NCBI GenBank assembly: GCA_945861435.1
Contig: CAMAUX010000021.1
Coordinates: forward strand, 1-64,000
DNA: 64,000 bases
Reading direction: 5' to 3'
Origin: Chthoniobacter flavus
Lineage (GTDB): Bacteria; Verrucomicrobiota; Verrucomicrobiia; Chthoniobacterales; Chthoniobacteraceae
Shown here: piece after piece, positions 55,382 through 59,414 of the stretch
How positions within the stretch are numbered: the stretch's first letter is position 1
How the letters are laid out: the number at the start of each line of letters is the position of its first letter
Program-made: the position numbers and the translations under genes
Notes under the pieces: model-generated
The model's database searches: none
Told to the model about the DNA's origin: nothing
What the model saw: only the letters and a program-made list of their open reading frames with translations

Positions 55382-56089
55382 ATGAAACTACTCACCGGGC
55401 TCTTCGCCCAGCGGTCATTACTCGGGGGCCTCTCCCGAGTCCTCGCGATCACAGCACCCCTTCTAGTCCCGGCATGCGCGGTGCCGAGGGCCGTGACAAA
55501 CCCGAATTACAATGCCGAAAAATACAGCCGGGTGGCGGTGATCACGGTTCCCGAGCAGCCGAATATCAATCCCGGTCTCCTGCGCCGCATGGAGGATGTC
55601 TTCACGATGGAGATTATTGCGAAGGGATACTCCGTCGTTTCACGGTCCGACGTGCAACGGGTGCTGAAAGAAATCGACTTTCAGTCCTCCGGGCTCACGG
55701 GGGGGGGGCAGAGCGCGGCAAGAATCGGCAAGATCCTCAACGTTCCCGGCATCGTCCTTGTCGGGGTGAACAACGTTGAGGAAAGGAATCATTACACACC
55801 GGGCAGCAGCGGATATTACCGTAACAAAAGGGGGGAGATATCGGCGTACTCGACCGAGGCGTCGAACATGGTCATCTCGTCCGCTGCTGTCAGCGCCCGT
55901 CTCGTGGATGTGCAGACGACGGACGTGCTCTGGCTGGGACAGGCGAGCTCCGGCGGTGGCGACAGTCCGATGTCCATCCTGCAATCGGGGTTCGGGGATG
56001 GAATGGGGGGCGCCGAGAACATGGCGCAGATCTTGGCCCAGCGCGTCGCCAAGACCTATCCCCCGCGTTATCCCAAGTCCGCCAAATAA
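55382..56089 (+). CDS. CsgG/LpoB-fold lipoprotein
   Basis: This 235-residue protein has a lipoprotein signal: 'LAITAPLLVPACAV', with LVPAC as lipobox and Cys as acylation site. The mature part fits CsgG-like/GNA1162 proteins: 'YSRVAVITVPEQPNINPGLL', 'MEIIAKGYSVVSRSDVQRVL' and 'AVSARLVDVQTTDVLWLGQA'. The fold occurs in curli secretion channels and in LpoB-type activators of peptidoglycan synthases. It is the first of four same-strand genes (gap of 15 bases to the next). The ATG at 55382 is chosen for the signal. Confidence 0.8.
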   Translation: MKLLTGLFAQRSLLGGLSRVLAITAPLLVPACAVPRAVTNPNYNAEKYSRVAVITVPEQPNINPGLLRRMEDVFTMEIIAKGYSVVSRSDVQRVLKEIDFQSSGLTGGGQSAARIGKILNVPGIVLVGVNNVEERNHYTPGSSGYYRNKRGEISAYSTEASNMVISSAAVSARLVDVQTTDVLWLGQASSGGGDSPMSILQSGFGDGMGGAENMAQILAQRVAKTYPPRYPKSAK

Positions 56090-56104
56090 GGGCCACGCAC
56101 CCCC

Positions 56105-56968
56105 ATGCGTCGCATCCTCCTCGCCTGCCTCGCCTGCCTCGCATGTCTCCTCGGGCTCGGGGAGATGGTGGGATTTTGCGAGGCACCGCGGCTTGCGGTT
56201 CTCGTGTTTTCGGGTGAGGGGAGGAGCCAGGCTGTGGCGCAGGATTTCACCTCGCTGACGGCTGCGAGGCTGGTGAACTCCCGGAAGTTTGAAGTCGTGA
56301 AGCCCGAGGCGGCGGAACGCGCGGCCGCGTCGATGGGAGGGATGAGTGCGATGCAAAGTCCGGTCGCAATCGGGGATCTCGGAAAGGCGCTTGGATGCCA
56401 GTACGTTGTATACGGCACCGTGCTGGGCGCTGATGTTTTCACCACCCAGTTTTCTGGTTACGGAGTGACCTCCTTCAAAACGCAGTGCGGCCTGCGGGTG
56501 GACTTCAAGGTCTTGAACGCCTACGACCACCGCATCGTTTTTTCACGGACCCTCGAGGTTTCCGACGAGCCCACCGTCCAGTTGAACCGCCCTCCGGGAT
56601 TCAACGCGCCCCGTTTCGCGAGCCTGTCCAAGAAGGCGCTCACCGATCTGGAGTCGCCGATGCTGGCCTCGCTGGACAAGGATATCCGCGAGAGCGCCAA
56701 GGCCCTCCAACAGTTCCTTGCCGACAAGGAGCCCTCAGCGGGAGCGCAGAAGGTGACGCTGCGATTTGAATCCAACGTCCCCTCCGCCAGCGTCGAGGTC
56801 GACGGCGTCATTGAGGGCACATGCGCCGACCCGATCTCAGTCGCCCTGGGTCTTCATGAAGTGAGCATCAGAGCGCGAAGCTACGAGCCCTTCAGCAAAA
56901 AGATCCGCATGACAAAGGACACGGTGATCCCCGTGGAACTGGTCCGGGTAAAGACCTCGAAGAAATGA
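56105..56968 (+). CDS. CsgG-like protein with C-terminal PEGA domain
   Basis: This 287-residue protein has a signal peptide ('ILLACLACLACLLGLGEM'). Residues about 30-190 look CsgG-like ('AVAQDFTSLTAARLVNSRKF', 'LGKALGCQYVVYGTVLGADV', a typical beta-alpha run). Residues about 218-282 form a PEGA domain: 'LRFESNVPSASVEVDGVIEG' and 'GLHEVSIRARSYEPFSKKIR'. PEGA domains bind other surface layers or peptidoglycan. The combination suggests a periplasmic outer-membrane complex. It is followed after six bases by the next gene. The ATG at 56105 is used. Confidence 0.8.
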   Translation: MRRILLACLACLACLLGLGEMVGFCEAPRLAVLVFSGEGRSQAVAQDFTSLTAARLVNSRKFEVVKPEAAERAAASMGGMSAMQSPVAIGDLGKALGCQYVVYGTVLGADVFTTQFSGYGVTSFKTQCGLRVDFKVLNAYDHRIVFSRTLEVSDEPTVQLNRPPGFNAPRFASLSKKALTDLESPMLASLDKDIRESAKALQQFLADKEPSAGAQKVTLRFESNVPSASVEVDGVIEGTCADPISVALGLHEVSIRARSYEPFSKKIRMTKDTVIPVELVRVKTSKK

Positions 56969-56974
56969 CGGTGA

Positions 56975-58486
56975 ATGCACAGCCCCATGGAAACCCTGAA
57001 TAACCAATCCACGCGTGCAGAGATCTTCGACGCCCATGTGCGGAGCCATGCCCGCGCTCCATTCCTGCCCGCACTCGCCGCATGCACGCTCGCGATCCTT
57101 GGTGGCATCGATGCATCCGAGTCCGAACTGCGGCAGACCGCGGCTCTTTCCGCGGAGATTCCGGCGGAGGGTCGGTATGGCTTCTCCAAAGAACTGATTG
57201 AATCGGATGTCAGGGCCCTCGCCCTCCAGATGCAGGTGGCGTACCAAGGGCTGCCGCCTGCGAACACGCACTCCGCCGCAGTCGAAGCGCCGCCAGCGAA
57301 GGCGCTGCTGGTCGTCCGGACGAGCATCCCGGGGTTGGATGTCCGCAAATTAAACCAGCTCGCCGAGCAGGTCGCCGCGTCGATCAACCGCACGGACTTC
57401 AAGCTGGTGACACTGTCCGACGCCAATGTCACATCGGCGGAAGCGAAGAGCGGATCCGCGGCGCAAGGCGGCCTCCTCGACTTCAATGAAAACCAGTCGG
57501 TGGCGCATGCAGCCGCAGCAAGGGGCCTCGGGCTGGTGCTGTTCGTCGACTTGATGCACTTCAACGCGAAGGCCTCCACGATTCCCGGCGCGGCCAAAAT
57601 CCACATCCTCAACGCACGCGCCTCGCTCACCCTGCTAAATGCGGAGGACGGTGTCCGGGTGGCCGGAGCGAGCCGGGAAGTCTCAGCGCGCGGGGCGGAT
57701 CCTGAGAATTTGCGGGACAAAGGGTTTGAGCTGCTGGCCCGGGATCTGGCCGCGGAAATGCACGTCTGGAAGATTCCCGCGGCCCAACCAAAACTGGTCG
57801 AGCTGGAGGTGCATGCGCAAATGGACGGGATTGTTTTCCCGGTCATGGATGTTTCCTCCGCGAATGGAAACATCACGGTGAGCGACATCCCGGTGTTTGC
57901 GCAGGATGCGTCCGTGGAAATCGACGGCGTGCTGAAAGGCCGTGCGCCCTGCAGGATCGGCGTCGCGCCCGGAACCCACAAACTCAAGGTTTACCGCGAT
58001 GGGACGAATCCTTTCACCGCCACGATTCAGGTGATTGAACCCGGCAGGTACGATGCGCTGCTCGTCCCCTCCCCAGAATTCCGGCGGCATTTCGACGAGC
58101 AGATGGGAAAATTTCAGCGCATCAAGACTCTGGCGCTGGAGAAGAAGGCTGAGTTGGAAGCGGCCGGAGTGCGCACGGATGCGCTTCGCGTGGAGAATGC
58201 CAATGCCCGCGATGCCGGACGCGCCCAAGCGGGAACAGTCCGGAGCCGTGCGAGCGGGGAGGCGGCCCTCGCGGGCGCCGATGCCGAGATGAAGAAGGCC
58301 CAGGCTGAGGCCACTCGCAAGGGGGCGGAGGGGCAGCTGGCCATCGACAAGTCGACCGCATCCCACATGAGCGCGATCCTGAAAGCGCGCAACGAGATGC
58401 TTCAGACGCAACTGGAGGCCTTCCGCACCTTCGCCGAAAAGCTCGGCGACACTGCCTTCAGAATCGGGCTGCCTGTGCGGCAGTAA
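56975..58486 (+). CDS. PEGA-domain protein with C-terminal coiled coil
   Basis: This 503-residue protein has a hydrophobic segment at 28-45 that may be an uncleaved signal anchor. Residues 110-270 resemble the CsgG-type alpha/beta fold ('ALLVVRTSIPGLDV', 'RGLGLVLFVDLMHFNA'). The PEGA domain is at about 304-354 ('VFAQDASVEIDGVLKGRAPC', 'GTHKLKVYRDGTNPFTATIQ'). Residues 370-480 are Ala/Glu/Lys-rich and predicted coiled coil. This could span the periplasm. It sits between the CsgG-PEGA and FlgT-like genes with gaps of 6 and 13 bases. An alternative ATG lies at 56987. Confidence 0.75.
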   Translation: MHSPMETLNNQSTRAEIFDAHVRSHARAPFLPALAACTLAILGGIDASESELRQTAALSAEIPAEGRYGFSKELIESDVRALALQMQVAYQGLPPANTHSAAVEAPPAKALLVVRTSIPGLDVRKLNQLAEQVAASINRTDFKLVTLSDANVTSAEAKSGSAAQGGLLDFNENQSVAHAAAARGLGLVLFVDLMHFNAKASTIPGAAKIHILNARASLTLLNAEDGVRVAGASREVSARGADPENLRDKGFELLARDLAAEMHVWKIPAAQPKLVELEVHAQMDGIVFPVMDVSSANGNITVSDIPVFAQDASVEIDGVLKGRAPCRIGVAPGTHKLKVYRDGTNPFTATIQVIEPGRYDALLVPSPEFRRHFDEQMGKFQRIKTLALEKKAELEAAGVRTDALRVENANARDAGRAQAGTVRSRASGEAALAGADAEMKKAQAEATRKGAEGQLAIDKSTASHMSAILKARNEMLQTQLEAFRTFAEKLGDTAFRIGLPVRQ

Positions 58487-58499
58487 AATAGGATTACCC

Positions 58500-59414
58500 A
58501 TGAGAAAAACCCTGCTGTCTGGTTTTTACGCCCTGCTCACCCTTGCGGCCGCCGCCCAAGACCCCCTCCCGGCCAAGGTGCTGCGTCTGGACAAACTCGA
58601 GCTCGCACCCGGGATCATCACCGCAGAAATCGCGGACCGGTTTCGTGCGAGCATTCCGGACGTTGACAGCCGCATCCGCGGAGCCGTTCTCGCCACGCTC
58701 GGTCAGGAACTCTCCAGCTCGAAGCTCCTGAGTCTGGCGGTCCGGGAGGACTCCTTGAGACGCCTTGCTGCAGAGTGGGAGGTGCGCGAGCAGTTCGCCA
58801 CAGGCAGGGCCGAGACCGGTCCCGCCTTGGAAGGGGCAAGCTTCCTCGCCTTCGCTAAAATCGAGGACTTTGTCGCCGACTACGACGTCCGCGAAAATGT
58901 CGCGGGAAAGGTGGCGGCATGGAAGCTCTCCATCGTCATTTCACTGGAAGTCACGGAACTCAAGGGCGGCACCAAGCGGGTGATCAAGGAACCCTTCGAA
59001 TGCAACGGGGGCGGGGTCGTTTCGACAAGGCGCGCGGAAGCGCCAGACTTCGGCTCCAGCGCTGTCCGCAACCTTGCGGATGGAGTTGCCAAAAAGCTGG
59101 GAATGCGGCTGCTGGATTCCCTGTGTCCACCGCGCATCACGCAGGTGCGTGGCATGCAATTGATCGTCGACCGGGGGAGGGCCGCAGGCATGAAGGAAGG
59201 GCAGCGCGTCGAGGTTTCCGAGCCGCCCGAAGATCCCTCCGCTGCGGCCGAAGGATTCCCCGTGGGCATGGCCGTCGTGAAGTCTGTGCGGGAGGATTCC
59301 AGCGTGCTGGAGATGATTTCTGCCGAGGGGGAGACGGATCTTTCCAAGGTGGAGATCAAGAAGACCTATAAAGTCTCAAGGATTCCGGACTCGTCCCCCA
59401 CGAACTGCCGCTGA
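58500..59414 (+). CDS. Exported protein with FlgT-like C-terminal region
   Basis: This 304-residue protein has a signal peptide ('LLSGFYALLTLAAAAQD'). The middle is CsgG-like: 'GASFLAFAKIEDFVADYDVR' and 'WKLSIVISLEVTELKGGTKR'. The end ('QLIVDRGRAAGMKEGQRVEV', 'FPVGMAVVKSVREDSSVLEM') resembles the C-terminal domain of FlgT, a flagellar outer-ring protein, though flagellar genes are absent. It is the last of the four-gene unit. The ATG at 58500 is used; the preceding gene ends 13 bases before. A repeat of CACGAAGG type follows the stop codon. Confidence 0.7.
   Translation: MRKTLLSGFYALLTLAAAAQDPLPAKVLRLDKLELAPGIITAEIADRFRASIPDVDSRIRGAVLATLGQELSSSKLLSLAVREDSLRRLAAEWEVREQFATGRAETGPALEGASFLAFAKIEDFVADYDVRENVAGKVAAWKLSIVISLEVTELKGGTKRVIKEPFECNGGGVVSTRRAEAPDFGSSAVRNLADGVAKKLGMRLLDSLCPPRITQVRGMQLIVDRGRAAGMKEGQRVEVSEPPEDPSAAAEGFPVGMAVVKSVREDSSVLEMISAEGETDLSKVEIKKTYKVSRIPDSSPTNCR

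Follow-up and report, generated by a model that had tools for sequence, protein, structure and literature searches.

The four-gene locus G1-G4 (Table 1) of the window, which is the whole 64,000 nt stretch of DNA that was analysed, is most likely a variant of an LpoB-associated lipoprotein operon and is not filed as a member of that class. Specifically, G3 and G4 usually form the start of a five-gene operon in the Verrucomicrobiota that encodes a PEGA protein, a FlgT-like protein, a COG3014-type TPR lipoprotein (termed COG3014L, a label that we take to fit the TPR lipoproteins of this operon), YcfL (DUF1425) and LpoB, the last three being predicted outer-membrane lipoproteins. The window locus is an exception, wherein G1 and G2 occupy the operon instead of the LpoB tail of relatives. 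Searches for LpoB and COG3014L in the source genome found neither, which is why membership is not assigned. Gene order and distribution suggest that G1-G2 stands in for COG3014L-YcfL-LpoB, a replacement case that comprises two genomes of each type from one family.

Table 1. Genes of the locus, with positions in the window.
Gene	Position	Strand	Product
G1	55382..56089	+	CsgG-type outer-membrane lipoprotein, 235 aa, putative lipobox Cys32
G2	56105..56968	+	exported CsgG/FlgT_M-type domain and PEGA domain, 287 aa, homologous to G3
G3	56975..58486	+	exported CsgG/LpoB-type domain, PEGA domain and lineage-specific C-terminal coiled coil, 503 aa
G4	58500..59414	+	exported FlgT-like protein: CsgG/FlgT-middle domain and FlgT/TsaP C-terminal domain, 304 aa

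The open reading frames and the short intergenic gaps (15, 6 and 13 bases for G1-G2, G2-G3 and G3-G4) were confirmed as given in a preliminary description of this DNA, with all four genes on one strand and some uncertainty in the start codon of G3. The CsgG-type, PEGA and FlgT-like domains that it assigned are likewise supported by Pfam and profile matches. Searches with the models that it had named gave a marginal CsgG match for G1 and PEGA matches for G2 and G3, and FlgT was matched for G4 at the family level only. The match of G1 to CsgG (PF03783) scores 21.6 bits, which is 0.8 bit over the cut-off of 20.8, and no other CsgG match exceeds the cut-off in the source genome. PEGA is matched by G2 and G3 with 27.2 and 30.5 bits, respectively (cut-off 20.8). 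G2 also carries sub-threshold Pfam matches to FlgT_M, CsgG, TolB_N and LpoB, all on one stretch, with LpoB at 14 bits (cut-off 22.3); the LpoB domain has no Pfam match in G1, G3 or G4. The single G4 sequence has no Pfam match, and the signal lies in the families: 16 of 17 members of the G3 family match PEGA, five match FlgT_M and four LpoB, and among 20 members of the G4 family CsgG is matched by 12 (best 2.8e-15), FlgT_C by three and FlgT_M by two. The G4 family also matches LpoB.

In addition to its CsgG match, G1 carries a lipobox-like cysteine (LVPAC), and its 67% identical orthologue in an uncultured Spartobacteria bacterium (genome G020, contig CAIXGS010000061.1) has FSSC at the same feature. 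The signal peptides of G2, G3 and G4, judged by eye, are of the ordinary type. Codon-position GC is uniform over the four genes, and promoter, terminator and Rfam scans returned nothing above chance. The G1 coding sequence contains ten consecutive G residues (55699-55708). No other run of G in the window reaches nine, and although the run is not above chance in shuffled sequences, it may be a site of slippage or an error of sequencing.

All four proteins are predicted to be exported and to share one common domain type, CsgG/LpoB/FlgT-middle. The closest pair in hhalign comparisons was G2 with the G3 family (98.6%, E = 6.9e-16, 203 columns), followed by G1-G3 (93.0%), G3-G4 (92.1%), G2-G4 (85.6%) and G1-G4 (71.8%). 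A tree of G2 and G3 has two very long branches that neither support nor refute a recent duplication of G2. When G1 was compared with LpoB, hhalign aligned the signal peptide alone, and by sequence G1 does not appear to be a demonstrable relative of LpoB. AlphaFold2 models of G4 and G1 are of low confidence (pLDDT 49.7 and 39.4) because two-row alignments served as input. The top Foldseek match of this low-confidence G4 model was the Vibrio LPHT ring (8z5n, E = 1.3e-5). VIA-align matched residues 33-211 of the same model to LptE/CsgG-type lipoproteins with middling Z scores of 5.8-8.2 that carry little weight, and FlgT was absent from the VIA-align rows.

The preliminary description had proposed an outer-membrane ring or secretion device, and beyond the marginal CsgG match of G1 no positive evidence for one emerged. 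If the locus encoded a CsgG-type secretion device, G1 would be the outer-membrane pore and G2-G4 would be periplasmic rings below it that export some substrate. This arrangement would accommodate the passing Pfam score of G1, its predicted lipoprotein nature, the Foldseek match of G4 to a ring, and the approximately 35 residues inserted in G1 near the position of the first CsgG membrane hairpin, where the poor model (pLDDT 39) has a hairpin. However, E. coli CsgG aligned with the G1 family at an hhalign probability of only 2.7%, no substrate, curli or flagellar gene adjoins G1-G4, and distant relatives of G1 (in stretches L068 and L069) have neither the insertion nor G2-G4 beside them. Furthermore, the conserved core operon G3-G4-COG3014L-YcfL-LpoB has no G1, and therefore most relatives would have no G1-type pore. 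G1 resembles the CsgG channel and the GNA1162-type lipoproteins by a marginal sequence match and the same broad domain type, but differs from the channel in having no curli partners adjacent and no demonstrated membrane hairpins. A curli-type pore is not supported, and we regard a secretion device of this type as distinctly improbable.

The distribution of the genes divides the locus into two modules, G1-G2 and G3-G4, and the four-gene set is not conserved. Among a set of 57 relatives that was searched for G2, G3, G4 and LpoB, G4 is found in four genomes, all of the same family: the source genome (G000), G003, G020 and G024. G3 is present in the source genome, G003 and G024, and G2 is present only in the source genome and G020, besides a weak PEGA-only match to G3 of G024. 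LpoB is restricted to G003 and G024. In both of these, G3-G4 is followed by COG3014L, a small lipoprotein and LpoB, with neither G1 nor G2 in the neighbourhood; YcfL is found in both of these LpoB-type close relatives (stretches L012 and L013). In G020 the order is G4-G1-G2, and G3 is missing. Thus the same-family tally, in which numbers are small, is an LpoB tail in two genomes, G1-G2 in two and both in none.

The four genes had been put forward as one conserved system, and this interpretation was rejected, as the full set occurs in no other genome searched, an outcome that the preliminary description had itself named as refuting; the nearest counterpart is G4-G1-G2 without G3, and other relatives carry G3-G4, mostly with the LpoB tail. 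The G4 orthologue of G020 carries a 190-residue N-terminal extension without a Pfam match, and a protein encoded nearby has the same extension (L011 5977-7263; blastp 4e-7). The latter position falls in a cluster of about eight genes for exported proteins (L011 1029-8688, + strand) that faces G4-G1-G2 and in which no protein has a Pfam family over the cut-off. Immediately upstream of G3 in G024 is a gene for an autotransporter-type beta-strand repeat protein that is apparently cut short (L012 10110-11618).

To extend the survey across the phylum, the G4 profile was used to collect 20 further stretches, 18 of them with G4, and G1 was looked for in this sample. Profile scans of all frames covered 21 loci with G4 outside the window, and in 17 of these G3, G4, COG3014L, YcfL and LpoB lie together on one strand. 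Among the remaining four, two have all except YcfL, one has G3-G4 alone and one is the locus of G020. The neighbourhood survey that the preliminary description had called for therefore recovers G3-G4 with an LpoB tail in place of the four-gene set. G3 and G4 of the source genome, which are adjacent on the same strand, score 366 and 287 bits with the operon profiles; these profiles were built partly from the same loci, so that the scores are partly circular and the positions are not. Independent Pfam models identify DUF1425 (YcfL, 3.8e-24) and LpoB (9.9e-21) in the operon of stretch L066, and the LpoB family profile matches the solved E. coli LpoB (2mii).

The G4 family profile is matched by 154 of 388 genomes of the phylum, many of them weakly or over part only, and COG3014L by 220 of the 388. 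In 30 of the 43 genomes with the strongest G4 match, COG3014L lies within 2 kb of G4. Where COG3014L comes first, a further conserved exported protein is encoded after LpoB (L058 7639-8358, L060 9809-10531 and L064 1286-2008). One operon contains two LpoB-like frames (L062 9936-11798). Also, COG3014L matches frames of approximately 800 aa in G148, G285 and G315, and a further match (G434:C48:1218-2651) lies within a 1282-aa open frame that is perhaps a fusion.

In the source genome itself, the best LpoB match scores 9.4 bits against the cut-off of 22.3, the LpoB family profile has no match, and a profile search did not find COG3014L. YcfL was not found by a profile scan of the locus within the window (stretch L014). 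The assembly comprises 5.35 Mb in 105 contigs and is 96% complete, and a missing LpoB could in principle reflect a gap in it.

The presence of LpoB in the operon bears on whether these proteins are direct activators of a penicillin-binding protein (PBP) as LpoB is in E. coli, with G1 as the activator in the window locus. In E. coli, LpoB crosses the wall to reach the UB2H domain of PBP1B (PMC9593243). The operon partnership of G3-G4 with LpoB homologues, whose family profile finds the solved E. coli LpoB, is consistent with such an activity. However, no UB2H-bearing PBP was found in 22 verrucomicrobial genomes, those with LpoB included. Five frames with UB2H matches in genomes other than the source genome were inspected as PBP candidates and rejected as Mfd or UvrB; the match in the source genome (19.5 bits, below the cut-off) lies in a 1083-aa frame. 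Furthermore, the linker between the cysteine and the LpoB domain is about 22-26 residues long in Verrucomicrobiota (with Cys positions corrected for L012, L060, L064 and L065) versus 59 in E. coli, too short for wall crossing of the E. coli type. Because of the short linkers and the UB2H-bearing PBP that was not found, E. coli-style docking of LpoB on PBP1B is unlikely in the Verrucomicrobiota. For the window locus, where LpoB was not found in the source genome, direct PBP activation through G1 is an unlikely function. The preliminary description had also suggested a peptidoglycan-synthase activator set. This comes close, in that the operon of relatives joins G3-G4 to the genes for a COG3014-type lipoprotein, YcfL and LpoB.

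The resemblance of G4 to ring proteins could instead point to a surface appendage, either as part of a flagellar H ring or as a type IV pilus secretin collar. The G4 family profile matches the TsaP C-terminal domain (6ve2, 6.5e-7) and the solved FlgT (3w1e, E = 0.025) in the PDB, and the LPHT ring match of the G4 model agrees with these. Family-level Pfam and PDB profile matches link G4 to Vibrio FlgT and to TsaP, and its likeness to FlgT is confined to the middle and C-terminal parts. In contrast to FlgT, the window G4 has no N-terminal FlgT domain. No flagellar gene lies in the window, and none of the 21 operons inspected contains a flagellar or pilus gene. The partner genes of G4 are LpoB, YcfL and COG3014L rather than appendage genes, and we consider a role in an appendage ring very improbable.

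A comparable lipoprotein set is known from Campylobacter jejuni and H. pylori. The C. jejuni genes cj0089-cj0090-cj0091 are co-transcribed and encode lipoproteins of 453, 122 and 207 aa (PMC3100323), and Cj0091 and its H. pylori counterpart HP1457 are LpoB homologues (PMC11394524). Deletion of HP0018, the Cj0089 homologue that is syntenic with HP1457, causes hypervesiculation, and HP0018 co-immunoprecipitates with MltD and AmiA (PMC11394524). The likeness of cj0089-cj0091 to the tail of the verrucomicrobial operon is one of order and size only: a TPR lipoprotein of about 450 aa, a lipoprotein of 122-140 aa and an LpoB homologue of about 200 aa. Descriptions of the Campylobacter and H. pylori system include no gene for a PEGA or FlgT-like protein, and at the window locus both COG3014L and LpoB are missing.

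The data support the earlier view of the locus as an envelope system. On balance, we lean slightly toward the explanation that it represents a lineage-specific version of an envelope operon that is conserved in the Verrucomicrobiota and whose products form an outer-membrane-attached scaffold that maintains the interface between peptidoglycan and outer membrane. The predicted lipoprotein or lipoproteins would tether these proteins to the outer membrane as anchors, and G3 and G4 would be soluble periplasmic partners with the same oligomerising domain type, with the PEGA and FlgT-C domains serving as interaction modules. Anchors, G3 and G4 together would constitute a scaffold that coordinates outer-membrane integrity with the synthesis or remodelling of peptidoglycan, and in the window locus G1-G2 would take the place of the COG3014-YcfL-LpoB lipoproteins. 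The association of lipoproteins, G3 and G4 in one complex is suggested by gene order and distribution, and we infer the biochemical role of G1-G4. The link to wall biology is drawn because LpoB is present in the operon and because of the HP0018 work (PMC11394524). Because the E. coli LpoB-UB2H route is unlikely, contact with wall enzymes would take place at the outer-membrane side or indirectly.

A bolder and rather doubtful extension, which we offer tentatively, is that bacteria without flagella possess an undescribed periplasmic scaffold or ring whose invariant core is G3-G4. Such a structure would be built from CsgG/FlgT/LpoB-type domains, would act without PBP1B and would have exchangeable outer-membrane lipoprotein modules (COG3014-YcfL-LpoB in most, G1 with G2 here). 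In this respect the window variant is a natural experiment, with the core pair kept and the lipoprotein tail exchanged. YcfL and COG3014-type proteins are widespread neighbours of LpoB without known function, and the operon gives new partners to test. Also, LpoB homologues with a short linker, occurring where a UB2H-bearing PBP was not found, may indicate that the role of LpoB is older than PBP1B activation.

As the preliminary description had stated, no published account of a system of this composition was found in the literature searched, and searches for COG3014, DUF1425 or LpoB together with FlgT or CsgG found no description of the combination. The individual pieces are already known. What appears to be new is the five-gene operon found across the phylum, together with the CsgG-type exchange. 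In E. coli (ycfL-lpoB) and Aeromonas caviae (COG3014-YcfL-LpoB), YcfL and LpoB are adjacent in the same order as in the verrucomicrobial operon, but these loci are without G3 and G4.

A translated search of a plasmid collection with COG3014L found matches outside the phylum in A. caviae and on an Azospirillum plasmid (NZ_CP039640). The plasmid genes are ordered hypothetical-YcfL-LpoB-DUF6844-FlgT-like, with the last annotated as hypothetical. The first hypothetical protein scores 230 bits with the COG3014L profile, LpoB scores 152 bits, and the product of the last gene matches the middle and C-terminal portions of the G4 family with 67 bits. This cluster of Azospirillum sp. TSH100 (E6C72_RS31085-RS31105) resembles the verrucomicrobial operon in COG3014-YcfL-LpoB and the FlgT-like last gene, but differs in its gene order, in the extra N-terminal domain of its FlgT-like protein and in the replacement of the PEGA protein by DUF6844. 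The gene for the DUF6844 protein (L096 7391-8737) comes after LpoB and before the FlgT-like gene, the slot that the PEGA protein takes in Verrucomicrobiota.
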